Source: Plesiomonas shigelloides
Lineage (GTDB): Bacteria > Pseudomonadota > Gammaproteobacteria > Enterobacterales > CAMTGL01
Assembly: GCF_900087055.1 (NCBI RefSeq)
Contig: NZ_LT575468.1
Coordinates: forward strand, 1,612,001 to 1,676,000
Direction: 5' to 3'
Length of the DNA: 64,000 nt
Each line of letters starts with the position of its first letter. Within the stretch, counting starts at the first letter, position 1. The translations under genes and the position numbers were made by a program. The notes under the pieces are model-generated. The model saw nothing but the letters and a program-made list of their open reading frames with translations, was not told the DNA's origin and did no database searches. Below are positions 3,126-37,660 of the stretch, piece after piece.

Positions 3126-3247
3126 TGATAACAAAAAATTCAACAGGGACATTTTGAAATGGGCATTCGCTGCGCGAATTTTACGCCCATTTCAAACCAC
3201 TGCGCACGCAGGCGTGCTCCGTTATGCCCCTTAATTAAATGTTATGA
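3126..3247 (+). repeat. attC site 5
   Basis: TGATAAC at 3126-3132 to GTTATGA at 3241-3247; GGGC/GCCC stem subtype. The cassette to its right has a near-identical second copy after attC 19. Confidence 0.93.
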
Positions 3248-3344
3248 TTTCATTAGAACTATGCTGTTTTCTTCAAAGCTACAACAAATCGTGTTACCTT
3301 TTAGCCAGTTTTACAGGGTATCAAATAATGCATGGAGCTGCATG

Positions 3345-3899
3345 ATGAGGGCTTTTTTTCTTGGTGCTTTACTGGTTCTTCAACCGACAGTCTCAATGAG
3401 TACTGAAAATACTCAAATCTCATCAGAGGTTACGAGGTCTTCTGCTATTCCTGAGTTCAAAGATTATCCTTCTTCTGCACCTTATATTGGCCCAGCAGGG
3501 AAGTTAATAAAAAACTCAGAACTATCTAAAACATTTCCAACTCGACTAAGCAAAGCAATGGCTGAACCACCAGTAATTGCAGGTGAGTATGTTATTACTG
3601 GTTGGGGGTGTGGTGGAGCTGGTTGCTACGTTGAAGCATTAGTGAATAGGAAAACCGGGCAAGCGGTTGAGACCACGTTTAATGCATATAATTTGTGGCA
3701 AGAGAACGAGAATGGAGAAGGTGAGGATTTACGAGTTGGTGAGTGGATTGACTCGTACAATCTTAATAGCCGATTAGTTGTTACATCGAAAGTTGCTGAG
3801 GGCATTGATGATGGCAACTCACGAGAATATCTAAAAAACTATTATGTCATAAATGGTAATGTTCTAGAGCTAATCAAAACTGTCAAAGAGAGCAAATAA
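3345..3899 (+). CDS. Exported protein with WGCG..GC motif (duplicate copy A)
   Basis: This 184-residue protein has an N-terminal signal peptide (MRAFFLGALLVLQPTVSMS). The mature part carries FKDYPSSAPYIGPAGK, FPTRLSKAMAEPPVIAGEYVITGWGCGGAGC and VNRKTG. Secreted proteins with an F-x-DYP start and a [AG]-x-YV-x-T-x-WGCG-x-x-C core are common in proteobacteria but have no assigned function, as far as I know; the two cysteines may form a disulfide. The start was chosen for GGAG at 3334-3337; longer frames run back through attC. The gene is sense to attC. Its paralogue is at 16852-17406. Confidence 0.75.
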   Translation: MRAFFLGALLVLQPTVSMSTENTQISSEVTRSSAIPEFKDYPSSAPYIGPAGKLIKNSELSKTFPTRLSKAMAEPPVIAGEYVITGWGCGGAGCYVEALVNRKTGQAVETTFNAYNLWQENENGEGEDLRVGEWIDSYNLNSRLVVTSKVAEGIDDGNSREYLKNYYVINGNVLELIKTVKESK

Positions 3900-16754: not shown

Positions 16755-16851
16755 TTTCATTAGAACTGTGCTGTTTTCTTCAAAGCTAGAATAAATCGTG
16801 TTACCTTTTAGCCAGTTTTACAGGGTATCAAATAATGCATGGAGCTGCATG

Positions 16852-17406
16852 ATGAGGGCTTTTTTTCTTGGTGCTTTACTTGTTCTTCAACCGACAGTCT
16901 CAATGAGTACTGAAAATACTCAAATCTCATCAGAGGTTACGAGTTCTTCTGCTATTCCTGTGTTCAAAGATTTTCCTTCTTCTGCACCTTATATTGGTCC
17001 AGCAGGAAAATTAATAAAAAATTCAGAACTATCTAAAACATTCCCAACTCGACTAAGCAAAGCAATGGCTGAACCGCCGGTAATTGCTGGTGAGTATGTT
17101 ATTACTGGTTGGGGGTGTGGTGGGTCTGGTTGCTACGTTGAAGCATTAGTGAATAGGAAAACCGGGCAAGTGATTGATACCACATTTAATGCATATAATT
17201 TGTGGCAAGAGAACGAGAGTGGGGATGGTGAAGATTTACGAGTTGGTGAGTGGATTGACTCGTACAATCTTAATAGTCGATTAGTTGTCACATCAAAAGT
17301 TGCTGAGGACGTTGATGATGGCAACTCACGCGAATATCTAAAGAATTATTATGTCATAAATGGTAATAGTCTAGAGCTAATTAAAACTGTTAAAGAGAGC
17401 AAATAA
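16852..17406 (+). CDS. Exported protein with WGCG..GC motif (duplicate copy B)
   Basis: 184 residues, almost identical to the product of 3345-3899; differences include FKDFPSS for FKDYPSS, WGCGGSGC for WGCGGAGC and VIDTTF for AVETTF. The homology covers the entire cassette, from the GTTATGATTTCATTAG left end to the TAACAAA at its right end, so a whole-cassette duplication is likely. Signal peptide, GGAG site and start are as in copy A. It is sense to attC. Confidence 0.75.
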   Translation: MRAFFLGALLVLQPTVSMSTENTQISSEVTSSSAIPVFKDFPSSAPYIGPAGKLIKNSELSKTFPTRLSKAMAEPPVIAGEYVITGWGCGGSGCYVEALVNRKTGQVIDTTFNAYNLWQENESGDGEDLRVGEWIDSYNLNSRLVVTSKVAEDVDDGNSREYLKNYYVINGNSLELIKTVKESK

Positions 17407-29809: not shown

Positions 29810-29892
29810 GTGCTGTTATAGTTTATTGAGTTACTCTAAATTTAATTTAAATAAATCAACATAATACATAAATTTACACACGGAATTTGTTC

Positions 29893-30792
29893 ATGAAAGT
29901 ATTGGGTCGGACTTTTTTTCGCGCCGCTGCGGTAGTGATTTCTTGCTGGTCATTCGCGGGTTTAGCGCAGAGTTCCTTGGTTAAGGCGCAGGATACTGCG
30001 GCGTTATCCGCGCAAGTGAAATCGGTGGAGCAGACATTAGGGGCACGTGTGGGGGTATCTGTATTTATCCCCAGTCAAGGCGTGGTGTGGAATTACCACG
30101 GCGATCAGCGTTTCCCGATGATGAGTACGTTTAAAACGTTGGCTTGCGCTAAAATGCTGACGGATGTTGATGCGGGTAAATTGGCATTGAAAGATACCGT
30201 TAAGGTTCGCAGTGAAGATCTCATGGAGTATTCACCGGTATTGCGTCCACTGGCAGGTACGGATATCACCTTACAAGCGGCGTGTCAGGCAACCATGGAA
30301 ACCAGTGATAATACCGCCGCTAATTTGGTGCTTGAAAAAATCGGTGGTCCTGCTGCGCTAACAGCATACTTGCAGTCAATCGGTGACAACGTCACAAGAT
30401 TGGATCGCAATGAGCCAACACTCAATGAAGCGGCCAAAAACGATCCGCGAGATACCACCACGCCGAATGCGATTAACCACACCTTGAACACATTGGTGCT
30501 CGGCGAGACCTTATCTAGCACTTCACGTCAGCAGCTGAAAACGTGGATGCAAGATAATAAAGTGGCGGATGGATTGTTGCGCTCCGTGCTGCCTCAAGGC
30601 GTTCAGATAGCCGATCGCTCTGGTGCGGGTGGTTTTGGCTCCCGTGGGATCACCGCGTTGGTTTGGTCTGCGCAACAAGAGCCGATGTTTGTCTCTATCT
30701 ACCTGACGCAAACCGAAGCGACCTTTGATGAGCGTAATGCCGCGATTGTAACTATCGGCAAAAGCATATTTGATACATTTTTGACCCGCTAA
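29893..30792 (+). CDS. Class A beta-lactamase, CARB (carbenicillinase)-like
   Basis: The 299-residue precursor has a signal peptide of about 25-33 residues. Active-site motifs are STFK (Ser78-Lys81), SDN (138-140), EPTLN with the general base Glu174, and RSG (242-244). Arg in the first position of the last triad, with RSGAGGFGSRGITALVW, is the mark of the CARB/PSE group, where most class A enzymes have KTG or KSG. Cys85 and Cys131 fit the usual disulfide. It should hydrolyse penicillins, carbenicillin included. It is chromosomal here, with no cassette site beside it. The start is ATG at 29893; a TTG at 29887 also exists. Confidence 0.92.
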   Translation: MKVLGRTFFRAAAVVISCWSFAGLAQSSLVKAQDTAALSAQVKSVEQTLGARVGVSVFIPSQGVVWNYHGDQRFPMMSTFKTLACAKMLTDVDAGKLALKDTVKVRSEDLMEYSPVLRPLAGTDITLQAACQATMETSDNTAANLVLEKIGGPAALTAYLQSIGDNVTRLDRNEPTLNEAAKNDPRDTTTPNAINHTLNTLVLGETLSSTSRQQLKTWMQDNKVADGLLRSVLPQGVQIADRSGAGGFGSRGITALVWSAQQEPMFVSIYLTQTEATFDERNAAIVTIGKSIFDTFLTR

Positions 30793-32066: not shown

Positions 32067-32402
32067 TTGTGCCTACAGCGCTACCTCTGATGGGGTAGAT
32101 TCAGCTTTATTAGTCTACGAAATGACTAACTGTCTGCTTATCAAGATTAATTTTTCAGCACTCACACAACATAATGCGTTTTTTTTAAGGATCGGGGATT
32201 AATCTCACATCCTGATACTGGTTTTTGCTTTCAGGGTTTGATATACCGAAATCAGAGGCAACACGGAGCATGACAGAGCGGAGGTATTGCGCATAAAACT
32301 GGGGAGATGCAAGAGGGCAACGTTCTCTTGGTTCCGACATCTCTAATGCAACTGTGGGTATGCGGGCTTCCGACATACCGGGCTATCCGTAAGGAGGGCA
32401 TA
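32067..32402. other. Leader region of the HTH gene
   Basis: No gene in 336 bp. Close to the HTH gene a hairpin GGTATG / CATACC with loop CGGGCTTCCGA stands 14 bp before the AAGGAGGG ribosome site. TTCCGACAT occurs twice (near 32333 and 32368). This could be a translational control region, but I do not recognise a known riboswitch. Confidence 0.3.
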
Positions 32403-32846
32403 ATGCTGGTAAGTAAACACGGGATTGGTGGCGTCGGCATGCATGATGATGGATGTGACTACACCGCAGTAATCTTAGATCGGCAAAATGCCGCAGCGAG
32501 AGCCAGAACGCGGACGGGGTTTCGTCCCGCAGTAAAACCGGTAAAAGTCTCTGATATTTCTGTACCTGAAATCGCACAGGTTTTTTTGGGTGACAGAATG
32601 ACCTTTTCAAGAGGTATTCTTGAAGGTATCTATCACCTACAAATGCTAGGGTATTCCGCTGAAACGATAGCGGAGCGAACGGGGATTGGATTGATCACCG
32701 TGAAAGATATCCTACGTCGAAAAACAAACTCTCACCGTGCGGCGTTCAGTGCTGCTTCTGTAAAGCCGTTGTCTAGCGAACGGGCAATTTTTGATTTGAT
32801 CCGTATAGCTGATGAGAGAGATAGGCAAGAGCGTCGAGTCAGTTAA
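32403..32846 (+). CDS. Small HTH-like protein of unknown function
   Basis: 147 residues, start fixed by the strong site AAGGAGGG at 32391-32398. The N-terminal part has many arginines (AAARARTRTGFRPA). The C-terminal part, ILEGIYHLQMLGYSAETIAERTGIGLITVKDILRRKT, reads as a helix-turn-helix, and a helical tail ends in RDRQERRVS. A DNA- or RNA-binding role is plausible. I do not recognise the family. Confidence 0.6.
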   Translation: MLVSKHGIGGVGMHDDGCDYTAVILDRQNAAARARTRTGFRPAVKPVKVSDISVPEIAQVFLGDRMTFSRGILEGIYHLQMLGYSAETIAERTGIGLITVKDILRRKTNSHRAAFSAASVKPLSSERAIFDLIRIADERDRQERRVS

Positions 32847-33127
32847 TACGTCACTCTTGTTTTCAGCTACGGTGGTTTTGCGCCTCCGTAGTTGATACTA
32901 AATGTTTCAATTCGTATCCATTTATTTACTCATCGTTTGCTAACTGGCGTTATCTCGCAAAAAATAATTGTCTTTATACTTAGTTTATTCGTTGTGTAAT
33001 AATTGAAAGGTTGTTTTGTTTTATCTCGCTCTATCTCTTTTCTATATGGAAAAGGTGTTTTATAAATGAGCTGGTATAAAAATAATAATTAGGCATCATG
33101 TTGTATATTGAATAGAAGATATGCGTT

Positions 33128-33403
33128 ATGAGTGGACACTCTTGGGTATGTATCAGGTGTAAAATGCCAGCCATCCATGGAACAGGATTACAAAAACTAC
33201 GTAAAAACCTTCTCACGTTTAGAGGCATTTTTGCGCTCATAACGTTTGTTCTTGCCGTGTTTTTCTTTGTTCTTCTCGTATTACAATTACGAAAAGATGA
33301 GGCCATGGATTATGAAGCGCTGACGTATTGCTGGGATCTGGGTATTTCAGCTGCGTTTATGGCATTGCTTAGCATTATTGCAATAACCAAAGCGGTTTTT
33401 TGA
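33128..33403 (+). CDS. Small two-segment membrane protein
   Basis: 91 residues. It has an N-terminal CIRCKM pair of cysteines, a membrane segment GIFALITFVLAVFFFVLLVLQL (about 33-54) and a second one near 72-90. There is no clear ribosome site. It is probably real because of its composition, but the function is unknown. The flanks 32847-33127 and 33404-33627 are gene-free. Confidence 0.45.
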   Translation: MSGHSWVCIRCKMPAIHGTGLQKLRKNLLTFRGIFALITFVLAVFFFVLLVLQLRKDEAMDYEALTYCWDLGISAAFMALLSIIAITKAVF

Positions 33404-33627
33404 TTGCTTAATCATTGTGACTGGCAACAGGCTTACTAAGATGTTCAACGGAGGATAAATGCCGTTTAGCATGTTGGTGAGCCTGTTTGCGTTTGATACG
33501 GAATAATCAAGAACGTAGGCATAAAGCGGTTATGAGTTGATTTTATTGGTGACCAGATGATTGCTATGTCACTGATTGGAAAGTAAATAATAGCTAGGTA
33601 AACTTAGGATAACAAGGAAGATTGGCA

Positions 33628-34290
33628 ATGGGGGATGTAACCGTACTGTGGCATGTCGCTGTGATTTGGGGATTAGCTGTACTGACTCCTGGTGCGAATG
33701 TGCTGTTAACCTTGAATACTGCGTTGACGCAAGGTCGTCACAGTGCGTCTTGGGCTGCATTGGGCGTAACTAGCGCGGTATTTATCTGGGCTCTCTTAGG
33801 TGTGTCTGGTCTGCTTTTGCTCTTCAAAACATTCCCTTGGTTGCTCTACCTGGTGCAAGGTGTGGGTGGATTATATTTACTCTATTTAGGTTATAACAAG
33901 TTGTACAAGGTCGTGTATGAAATAATTAAACGACGCGCAGTAAAAATAGATCCAGTGCCACTGACAACAAGCATAACACCTGTGTATTCGGTTGCGCCAT
34001 CAACGAAATCAATGTTTAAAACAGCGATGGTAACCAGTCTTATTAATCCTAAAACAGGTCTTTTTGTCCTCAGTCTTTTTTCTGTTACGCTTCCTGATGT
34101 ATTTCCTGCCACGCTGGCATCACTGGTTGTGATCATTATGTGTTGCATTACACTTATGTGGCATATGACGTTGGCGGTGGTGTTTTCTAAATCCACGGCC
34201 AAAAATGTATATCACAAAGCATTTATTCCCATTGAACTTTGCTGTGGTGGATTGTTCACTTACTTTGGATTAAGAATATTATTAGGTTAA
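33628..34290 (+). CDS. LysE/RhtB-family exporter
   Basis: 220 residues with six predicted membrane segments. The family signature LTPGANVLLTLNTALTQGRHSASWAALGV (about 19-47) and LLYLVQGVGGLYLLYLGYNKL are present; INPKTGLFVLSLFS matches the NPK motif in the second half. Such proteins export amino acids or related compounds; the substrate is unknown. AAGGAAG stands 7 bases before the ATG. Confidence 0.88.
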   Translation: MGDVTVLWHVAVIWGLAVLTPGANVLLTLNTALTQGRHSASWAALGVTSAVFIWALLGVSGLLLLFKTFPWLLYLVQGVGGLYLLYLGYNKLYKVVYEIIKRRAVKIDPVPLTTSITPVYSVAPSTKSMFKTAMVTSLINPKTGLFVLSLFSVTLPDVFPATLASLVVIIMCCITLMWHMTLAVVFSKSTAKNVYHKAFIPIELCCGGLFTYFGLRILLG

Positions 34291-34940
34291 ATCACTCATC
34301 TTGCCGTTGTAGCCCTAATCTTGTTCTTGAACTGGCCGTCTTGTTTAAATGTATAGCGAGCCGGGGATTTGCAGGATAATCTAACGAGTTGTGATTTATC
34401 TCATCCTTCGACGACTTCTCCCTTCGGATATCACTTTTTGACTGGCAAGTTCACCAACCTTAACTAAACTCAATAGTGGGTATTGAAAGATAATACCTTT
34501 ATTCGGATTACCTATAGAGACTTATAGATGAAAGGCATCTGTTTTTGAAAGAAAAATCAAAGACATCTGCTGCAACATAGAAAAGCAACGCGTAAAATCG
34601 AAAGCGTAAGACATGTAATCAGATGGTAATTAAAGGTAACCGGCCTGTATACCCTGTTTGATGAATGGTGGTAATGTGACTCTAGGGCATGTTATCCCAG
34701 TTGGGAGCAAACACTTCTGGTATCTGAACGCTGAAATGCAGTTTGGTTTGAAGTGATCTCGCTGGAAGCAAATGATGACAGTCCACTTTTGAATGGTATG
34801 TGTGATGATACATGTCACGGAATACTGAACACCGCGGTTGTGGTGTCAGCGTCCGGAAACGTGTAACCAAGCAAAGGAAAGGAGGCGTTATCAGGGATTA
34901 TAGGTAAATCATTCAAACCAATCCTCAAAGAGGTGGCAGG
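34291..34940. other. Gene-free stretch upstream of the small membrane protein
   Basis: 650 bp with no credible gene on either strand and no tRNA-like fold that I could see. AGGAAAGGAGGCG at 34875-34887 looks like a ribosome site, but no frame follows it. Confidence 0.4.
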
Positions 34941-35090
34941 ATGCTGATTCCATTATCGTTAAGTGTTGTCGTGTTACTGGCTGTGGTAGGTTTGTTTATG
35001 ATGAACCGAAAATCCACGAGCAATGGTCAAATGGGTAGCTTCTATGGTGCGTCCAAAACACCATCAGGCTGGGATCAGGAAACTGATTGA
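34941..35090 (+). CDS. 49-residue single-membrane-segment protein
   Basis: The frame runs ATG at 34941 to TGA at 35088-35090. It begins MLIPLSLSVVVLLAVVGLFM, a clear membrane segment, followed by a basic MNRKST and a polar tail GSFYGASKTPSGWDQETD. AGGTGGCAGG lies directly before the start. The positive-inside rule puts the tail in the cytoplasm. Its stop is 15 bp before the -10 box of the putative long RNA. No family recognised. Confidence 0.6.
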   Translation: MLIPLSLSVVVLLAVVGLFMMNRKSTSNGQMGSFYGASKTPSGWDQETD

Positions 35091-35101
35091 AAACGGTAAT
35101 T

Positions 35102-35110
35102 TGATATACT
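35102..35110 (+). promoter_or_regulatory. Extended -10 promoter
   Basis: TG-A-TATACT, a good extended -10 motif; no good -35 is seen. Transcription would start near 35117. Confidence 0.55.
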
Positions 35111-35116
35111 AATGTT

Positions 35117-36014
35117 TGATTAGTGAATCAACGCGATGCGGTCATAAGGAGGGTGACAAAAGGAAGCATAACTCGCGTATCCTTGCTAGCAACAGCAGGA
35201 AAATCCTAGCCTAGCGGCAAGTGACAAGAAGCAACAGCAAGATGCAGGAAAGCTAAGCAAGAAACGCAAGCTAGATATGGTAAACAGCGTAAATATGCTC
35301 AGGAAAGTAGAGTAAGCAGGAAGTAAAGTCAGTAGTACGTATCAGTGATAAGTAAACGTTATACTGTAATGCGTTACCGGCCATGTAAGGCTTCACGTGA
35401 AGATGGCCATCAGGTAAGTGCATGGGGTAATTGACCGGACAGTCAAACAGTAAAATGCAAAGTACCAATACAGCGAGTCTGTAGCTAATACACCTTGTTA
35501 TAAGGGTATAACTCAAGTGATAGCACATGAATCAACATGCTGTTGTATCGCAAACGAGTGAGCAAAAACTGTAACGTTAAACGTAAAGATACAAATCGGT
35601 CAAAACTGACGTTAAATGAGATAAAGCAAAGCAACAAGGTAAAAGTTAGTAAAGCTAAATCGAAACGAAACGCAATGAAAATCAAACACGTAAGGCCTGA
35701 TTTACGAGCTAGCAATTAGCTAACGGAATCAGTGAAGTCCGGCAGTTACAGATGTTAAACGTAAAACAATCTGGCTGAAGGGGCCAAACGAGTCTGGAGA
35801 TAGGTTGGGCGTGTTATTGTTGTAGTGATACGGCAATGAGACGAGATGAGAATAGCGACATAATCCGTTGTTAAGTTGAGGTTTTGTGGTACGAGTAATA
35901 ACCGGTGAAGTCCTTGGTGGTGGAAAACATTGCTGATGACTTTAGTGATTAACGTAAACATCGATAGTATGTACACCTAAAACCGGAATCGCTGATAGAG
36001 GATTCCGGTTTTTT
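35117..36014 (+). ncRNA. Candidate long structured RNA (about 0.9 kb)
   Basis: Between an extended -10 box and a strong terminator lies about 900 bp with frequent stops in all frames, an A/G-rich plus strand and several stems. These are a 5' hairpin TTGATT AGTG AATCAA (35116-35131), a compound hairpin TTACC-GGCCAT-CTTC / GAAG-ATGGCC-GGTAA (35374-35417), and CTTG-TTATA aggg TATAA-ct-CAAG (35494-35517). GTTAAACGTAAA occurs twice (35577-35588, 35754-35765). The 60-residue frame at 35537 is very basic, lacks a ribosome site and is probably not a gene. I do not recognise a known RNA class. Transcription is inferred. Confidence 0.45.
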
Positions 36015-36015
36015 A
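35980..36015 (+). terminator. Strong intrinsic terminator of the candidate RNA
   Basis: AAAACCGGAATC, loop GCTGATAGAG, GATTCCGGTTTTTT. The 12-bp arms are perfect and end in T's. Confidence 0.92.
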
Positions 36016-36094
36016 TTGGCTATGCTTTGTGAACTGACTTTGTGAGCGAGCAGTGTGAACGGTTGCTTCTCAGCTGCTTTTCTCTGTGGCGCTG

Positions 36095-36556
36095 TTAATA
36101 CACCCAGTCTTTCAACTTAAATTGCATCGTATGTTGCCCATCCGTCAGATGAAGAATCTGGTTTTGCCATGTCAGCGTTGCCCCTTGCTGTAGCATCTGG
36201 GTAAACATTGCGTCAAATTTCTCCCATTCGGGATTCGCACAATTTTGTTGCGTTAGCGGGCGAAGGTCACTGACGATCCGTTGTCCATCAATGAGGTAAG
36301 TGCCTTGTAGCTCATGACAAAAGGTCGCTCCCAGTTGGCTATTCTCATAAAAATCGATGCCGGGATACATAGTGTTGCCTTGTTGAACCGGAGTCTGGTC
36401 AACCTGAGTCAACACAAAATGACGATGCGCTAGCATTTGTGGCGTGATCAATGACTCTGACGCAGAGGATGTTGCTATTGCGTTTGCTGATGTGGCGGCG
36501 GTGTTGGTGCATGCGGTCAGTGTTAACAAGGGGAGGAGTAGCAGCAGTTTGTTCAT
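36095..36556 (-). CDS. META-domain (HslJ-like) lipoprotein
   Basis: 153 residues with a lipoprotein signal MNKLLLLLPLLTLTAC, Cys16. The rest, AHRHFVLTQVDQTPV, GIDFYENSQLGATFCHELQGTYLIDGQRIV and the late FDAMFTQMLQQGATLTW, follows the META/HslJ pattern (RHWxLxxVDG…). The family is linked to heat or drug stress. The start was placed at the signal peptide; the frame is open further upstream. It is divergent from the membrane protein at 36778, with 221 bp between. Confidence 0.75.
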   Translation of the reverse strand: MNKLLLLLPLLTLTACTNTAATSANAIATSSASESLITPQMLAHRHFVLTQVDQTPVQQGNTMYPGIDFYENSQLGATFCHELQGTYLIDGQRIVSDLRPLTQQNCANPEWEKFDAMFTQMLQQGATLTWQNQILHLTDGQHTMQFKLKDWVY

Positions 36557-36777
36557 AAGGTCGGCCAGCGATTTAATTTGCTTAGTAAAATAATCAGTTC
36601 CAGAGTGTTGGCTCTCTGTAATCTTGATGCGACATAATATGAAAATCATACCTTAAATCTGCAAGCGAAATAGCACTATTCTGACTTGGCTGCGCTTTAA
36701 TGATAAATCCTTTTGTGATGGGCTAAGGCCAAATTATAATCTCTCTTTTCTTGTGGATGCGGTGAGATCTCGTTCAT

Positions 36778-37476
36778 ATGCTGAATGTGTTGGATTTTGT
36801 GTTTCCAGTATTACTGGGCATTGCGGTGATGGTCAATGTGATCATGGCGGTGGTTCTGTGGAAGGGGCAAATCTGTCCGGGGCAGCGTCGTCGCTTGATT
36901 AAGCAGGGGCGTGGGTTGACGGTTTTATGGTTGTCAACGTTGGCTGCGGGTGCCGTTTCTCTAGAAAATTCAGTATTGGTATTTTTGGTTGCTGTAGCGG
37001 GGATTGCGTATGAATTTTCTCGCCACCAGCCAGTGCGAGCACGAAATGCATTGTTTGCTTCAGCGATAGTCGGCGTGTTTGCATTTATAGCTGCGCTGTT
37101 TGTGCTGCCGGCGAAAGCGGTGATGGTGGTCAGTTTGCTGACATCTGGCGCTGCAGTAACACATACGTTGATGGTTTCTGCACGTTGTCGATTACAAGCA
37201 TTTTACCGTCTATTACCTGCGACGGGGTTATTGGGTATTTTAGCCGCATGTGCTGAAGCAGTGCGATCCGCACTTAATGTAAATCTTATCAATGCCGTTT
37301 CTGCACAATATGCAACCGCAGGGGCATTGCTGATGCTGGCTGTTGCATTTGTCATTTGGATTTGGCCTGAGTTTAGTAAAGAGAAGCCTGGATTGGGTCG
37401 AATGGCGGTTGTAAGCACTATTTGTGTGATAAGTAACTTGTTTAATGGTGCGATTAATATTGGATATTGGATTTAA
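36778..37476 (+). CDS. Multi-pass membrane protein of unknown function
   Basis: 232 residues with seven or eight hydrophobic segments; basic loops (CPGQRRRLIKQGRG, SRHQPVRARN, SARCRLQAFYR) lie between them. I do not recognise a named family. It is monocistronic. 37477-37660 behind it shows nothing I can name. Confidence 0.6.
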   Translation: MLNVLDFVFPVLLGIAVMVNVIMAVVLWKGQICPGQRRRLIKQGRGLTVLWLSTLAAGAVSLENSVLVFLVAVAGIAYEFSRHQPVRARNALFASAIVGVFAFIAALFVLPAKAVMVVSLLTSGAAVTHTLMVSARCRLQAFYRLLPATGLLGILAACAEAVRSALNVNLINAVSAQYATAGALLMLAVAFVIWIWPEFSKEKPGLGRMAVVSTICVISNLFNGAINIGYWI

Positions 37477-37660
37477 CTTACTTTGATTGCTTATTGCATG
37501 AATGTAATGCGGATATCGGTTTTGAGATAAGACGAGCCATAATCTCACAGATTAATTGTAGTATTAATGCGGTGAAACTATTTAATAGAGTTAGCGCTGA
37601 TGTATTGACCGCTGGGGCAATATAAAGGGTAGGGTAACAGGCCGATCCTTGGCCAGTGGT

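Follow-up and report, generated by a model that had tools for sequence, protein, structure and literature searches.

A segment of the plus strand from 34516 to 36002 stands out from the 64-kb window (the whole stretch of DNA analyzed, part of a genome that consists of a single contig of 3.406 Mb) by carrying the strand composition of this genome's known RNAs, and it is our best estimate of an untranslated-RNA unit. We give about an even chance to the reading that one plus-strand transcript of ~1.5 kb is made here, comprising a leader, a 49-residue membrane-protein open reading frame (ORF), an untranslated tail, and a terminator. The locus lies in the 1.8 kb between a LysE-type transporter gene upstream (33622-34290, +) and a META/HslJ-type lipoprotein gene downstream (36095-36649, −), where the 49-aa ORF (34941-35090, +) is the sole credible gene. 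A Shine-Dalgarno sequence, GAGGTG (34930-34935, +), is located 5 nt upstream of its ATG. As judged from the residue pattern, the product has one predicted N-terminal transmembrane helix at residues ~2-22, and it ends in a hydrophilic, acidic C-terminal tail of 27 residues. If transcribed as one unit, the RNA would carry a short ORF that is predicted to be translatable; such an ORF is a property of dual-function RNAs and small-protein mRNAs. From these features, together with those described below, we infer the transcription, the boundaries, and the function of the unit.

The sequences on both sides of the ORF are non-coding. Three-base periodicity was 0.1-0.6 in the region, whereas 15 genes from the window gave values of 2.8-15; codon periodicity was also absent from two 900-nt tiles that cover the leader, with starts at 34300 and 34450. 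The tail (35091-35978, +), which is either a 3' untranslated region or a separate non-coding RNA, showed a periodicity of 0.5 and a purine content of 61%. When its broken plus-strand frames were compared with Pfam, with X placed at the stops, no family match was obtained; on this result and the absence of periodicity, we rejected a decayed gene. As described in the initial annotation, the plus strand is purine-rich and dense in stops immediately after the 49-residue ORF, which ends at 35090. Stop triplets amounted to 79 in 900 nt, compared with 65.8 (SD 4.7) in dinucleotide shuffles (p 0.002), and purines made up 61.2% of 35116-36015 (+). A 304-kb sample that includes the window and has a mean of ~51% G+C contained 5808 other strand-windows of 900 nt, none of which reached either value.

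The strand composition was evaluated with a skew score trained solely on RNAs of the same genome, namely a 23S rRNA fragment, RNase P RNA, and two CsrB RNAs. These known RNAs mostly have more A than T and more G than C, with nearly no 80-nt stretch in which C exceeds G, and the same signature was found in the 35091-36015 stretch and in the 0.5 kb preceding the 49-aa ORF. The proportion of 80-nt windows with C>G was 2% in the leader (34445-34940) and 3% in the tail; the known RNAs gave 0-3%, and the window as a whole had a median of 47%. The maximal segment with this composition (A>T, G>C) was 34516-36002 (+), with a score of about 40.2-40.3. It was the one outstanding segment of the window, in which the next segment scored 13.7, and it ranked first among all segments of a 704-kb sample (~21% of the chromosome), although the score is also high for some purine-rich protein genes, such as L019:5630-8095 at 38.4. 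The 23S fragment (30.2) and the csrB genes (25.4 and 21.1) all scored below it. The left edge of the segment is ~425 nt upstream of the 49-aa ORF and ~600 nt upstream of the promoter proposed in the initial annotation, and the right edge lies within the terminator.

Only the combined skew singled out the locus; G>C alone or A>T alone failed to do so. Because the plus-strand G excess spans 32220-37641, the G excess at the locus is partly a regional replication-strand skew. Greater specificity lies in the A excess, which flips at the terminator, such that the best minus-strand segment of the window in an A/T-only scan begins at 36003. These properties bear on an explanation without any dedicated RNA function, in which the LysE-type gene and the 49-aa ORF form an operon, the long spacer and 3' region are passively transcribed to the next terminator, and the skew results from replication bias and drift. 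Such passive transcription would be consistent with the regional extent of the G>C skew, the lack of homologues in the collections searched, and a modest fold that is equal on both strands. However, the purine content and the stop density are outliers in the 304-kb sample, as is the combined skew in the 704-kb sample. Moreover, the A excess ends at the terminator and runs counter to nearby genes, in which T is in excess, and the sense strands of ordinary tandem intergenic gaps show no purine enrichment (48%). We consider passive transcription alone a rather unlikely account of the locus.

Other purine-rich, non-coding segments were observed in the genome. L022 8065-8534 (−) (G000 1788065-1788534) is stop-dense, has 64% purine, and scored 19.9; it follows a hypE-like gene and runs across a hairpin terminator, and no Rfam match was obtained in L022. 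A 662-nt segment, L046 17153-17814 (−), scored 17.2 and had no Rfam match there. L040 4570-4960 (−), also with no Rfam match, forms a ~0.4-kb leader of a small ORF that, judged by eye, precedes a peptidase-U32-like gene, and it is a candidate regulatory leader. Local alignments between the 34516-36002 locus and further non-coding segments that are rich in purine were no better than those of shuffles, and no sequence kinship with L022 8065-8534 was found.

The proposed transcript would end at an intrinsic terminator (35979-36014, +) that had already been reported in the initial annotation and is oriented for the plus strand. It consists of a 12-bp perfect stem (arms 35979-35990 and 36001-36012) followed by T6, with a folding energy of −17.6 kcal/mol and a z score of −4.3, and only 1 of 200 shuffles was as good. 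Upstream of it, no strong intrinsic terminator was found on the plus strand between 34290 and 35979. The absence of coding signal, the strand signature, and this terminator provide good, though indirect, support for a plus-strand RNA that is untranslated and ends at 36014. Within the leader, alternating AGATG, CATCT, CATCT, and AGATG blocks are located by a TTTTT run (34526-34546 and 34563-34627); these blocks may be fortuitous, or they may pair as a weak terminator hairpin or in alternative ways.

The start of the RNA is less simply placed. The initial annotation had proposed a separate 0.9-kb non-coding RNA that is transcribed from its own promoter at 35102-35110 (+) and ends at the terminator; the 49-aa protein would be its neighbor or partner. 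Of all promoter-like sites in the region, the best is indeed located there, an extended −10 element (TGATATACT; TG-A-TATACT) with a poor −35, and the tail alone has the top purine content and stop density of the 304 kb. However, 1.6 sites as good as this one are expected by chance in the same length. A sigma-70 consensus scan returned 3 sites, compared with 5.9 in shuffles, and 35102-35110 was not among them. Support for a dedicated promoter thus did not exceed chance level. In addition, no strong intrinsic terminator separates the ORF from the tail, the signature and the fold continue upstream through the leader, and the first 450 nt of the proposed RNA fold no better than shuffles. A separate 0.9-kb RNA appears somewhat unlikely to us, and while the untranslated status and the end at 36014 were retained from the initial annotation, its boundaries are probably wrong. 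Because the skew segment starts upstream of the proposed promoter and spans the 49-aa ORF, we favor one ~1.5-kb transcript as the likely unit. This transcript would start near 34.45-34.52 kb, or arise by read-through from the LysE-type gene, whose end is at 34290. No promoter better than chance was found across the region, which counts against the one-transcript model.

Folding was analyzed by comparison with shuffled sequences. All of the elements cited in the initial annotation, including the extended −10, the 5' hairpin, the compound stem, the second stem, and the 12-bp terminator, are present in the sequence. The stems upstream of the terminator, however, did not exceed the shuffle range: z was +0.25 for the hairpin TTGATT-AGTG-AATCAA (35116-35131, +), −1.7 for the compound stem (35369-35423, +; 16 of 200 shuffles as good), and −0.7 for the second stem (35488-35509, +). 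The best local hairpins, apart from the terminator, were one located shortly before the ORF, with the core ACACCGC..GTGGTGT (34785-34880, +; z −3.45, 0 of 200 shuffles as good) and the stable hairpin CGTGTTATTGTTGTAGTGATACGGCAATGAGACG (35810-35843, +; z −3.7, 1 of 200 shuffles). In 450-nt tiles, the last third of the tail reached z −4.1, whereas the first 450 nt of the proposed 0.9-kb RNA gave z −0.6, the median of background tiles. The structured character claimed for the RNA therefore applies to its last third but does not apply to its 5' half. It also extends to the leader (34491-34940, +; z −3.7), which lies outside the unit claimed at first; this upstream continuation (34.5-34.94 kb) of the strand signature, with a stronger fold, had been overlooked. 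When the whole 0.9 kb was folded, z was −3.1 for the sense and −3.25 for the antisense strand. Since the antisense folds as well as the sense, fold energy alone cannot name the strand.

A structured leader in front of a short hydrophobic peptide is also reminiscent of type-I-toxin-like loci, in which folding of the leader, perhaps together with an antisense RNA, would restrain the 49-aa peptide (type I toxins are reviewed in PMC8309996). The size of the product, its single N-terminal membrane helix, and the leader may be likened to mRNAs of the hok/tisB type. Against this explanation, no minus-strand promoter above chance was found over the leader or the ORF, the protein had no Pfam match above the cut-off and no NCBIfam match, its 27-residue tail is hydrophilic and acidic, and the 0.9-kb tail of the transcript greatly exceeds those of known cases in length. 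We regard a toxin function as very improbable.

Relatives of the locus were searched at the levels of RNA family, DNA, and protein. No match at gathering score was obtained with Rfam 15 in the window, and a permissive scan returned only chance-level matches, the best with an E value of 0.3. The absence of a match to known large RNAs, which had been judged by eye, was thereby borne out by the complete Rfam 15 collection. The locus DNA is single copy in its own genome, and no relatives were found in the genus, the family (two genomes in the collection searched), 296 genomes of the order, phages, plasmids, or Escherichia coli. Exact sequence patterns of the locus were not found in viral contigs, and single-sequence covariance models of the leader, the middle, and the 3' part detected only the locus itself among 395 genomes. 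The sole same-genus genome in the collection is 75% complete and showed no nucleotide similarity across 14 kb around the locus, so absence from it says little. The 49-aa protein likewise had no relatives in the genus, the family, GTDB contigs, viral contigs, phages, or plasmids; against the 395 genomes of the order, it gave only weak matches (E 0.016-0.08), which were taken as transmembrane-like chance matches. When neighboring proteins were used as synteny anchors, none was found in GTDB contigs, and the META protein had one match elsewhere, at 31%. Within the collections searched, the locus is lineage-restricted.

Other features were observed in the same window. A chromosomal class A beta-lactamase-type gene is located at 29887-30792, where the listed ORF starts at TTG, and its closest plasmid relatives have <60% identity. 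Between 1 and 19000, ~20 attC/VCR-like repeats (core TAACAAAAA..TTCAAGCAGGGACATTTTGAAATGGGCATTCGCTGCG) separate small ORFs, an arrangement that resembles the cassette array of a chromosomal integron; cassettes are duplicated at 3159-3899 and 16798-17406.

We compared the locus with described RNAs. It resembles the CsrA sponges of the CsrB/CsrC and RsmY type in being purine-rich and C-poor and in carrying AGGA motifs, six of which are clustered in 200 nt (35145-35324, +; p 0.007 versus shuffles). These motifs are confined to the first fifth of the tail and are weakly CsrA-site-like, and their clustering hints at contact with CsrA. Sponges of this type carry numerous GGA motifs, placed mostly in hairpin loops and spread over the entire RNA; the locus has an ordinary number of GGA triplets, 12 in 925 nt, as many as are found in 19% of windows. 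A CsrB-type identity was rejected: the RsmY model aligned at 35246-35349 with 16.6 bits (E 0.3), compared with a gathering score of 57, and two good CsrB genes already exist elsewhere in the genome. The latter two are arranged in tandem ~1 kb apart (G000 2631208-2632538). GOLLD and ROOL share with the locus their size class and the lack of a coding frame; however, the locus has no Rfam match, no tRNA in the window, and no phage relative.

OLE RNA, with its membrane partner OapA, resembles the proposed unit in that a long RNA and a membrane protein are encoded side by side. The locus differs from it in being an orphan with a modest fold and no match to any Rfam model. The OLE-like partnership suggested in the initial annotation is an analogy, and the small protein may more simply be a product of the same transcript. 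A lineage-specific giant RNA of ~1.5 kb that encodes its own small membrane partner in its middle and forms a membrane-linked ribonucleoprotein, unrelated to OLE or other described large bacterial RNAs, seems to us improbable. Dual-function RNAs and small-protein mRNAs with long regulatory untranslated regions share with the proposed transcript the arrangement of a short ORF in a much longer, partly structured, untranslated RNA, although here ~1.4 kb of putative untranslated RNA surrounds 147 coding nt. The locus fits no described large-RNA family and cannot be filed under one; any likeness goes no further than to a dual-function RNA or to a small-protein message whose untranslated regions are very long.

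In the single-transcript reading, a structured leader of ~0.45 kb would be followed by the 49-residue single-pass membrane protein and by a C-poor, A-rich tail of 0.92 kb. The leader would most likely control access to the ribosome-binding site of the small ORF and so probably tune its translation. The tail may keep the message intact and localized, or may also act as an RNA, which would make the transcript a dual-function messenger. Rho loads on C-rich, G-poor RNA, and the tail, being C-poor relative to G, is expected to be a poor Rho substrate. The low C relative to G, although part of the G excess is regional, would allow RNA polymerase to escape Rho termination while crossing >1.4 kb of untranslated sequence, and the tail would persist untranslated.

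A skew scan learned from the genome's own stable RNAs thus placed this locus as its top match and also recovered the 23S rRNA and csrB genes, providing a simple, homology-free search for orphan RNAs, though some purine-rich protein genes rank high as well. If transcribed as proposed, the locus would be an orphan skipped by annotation and would represent an unusually long untranslated RNA tied to one small protein in an enteric-type bacterium.
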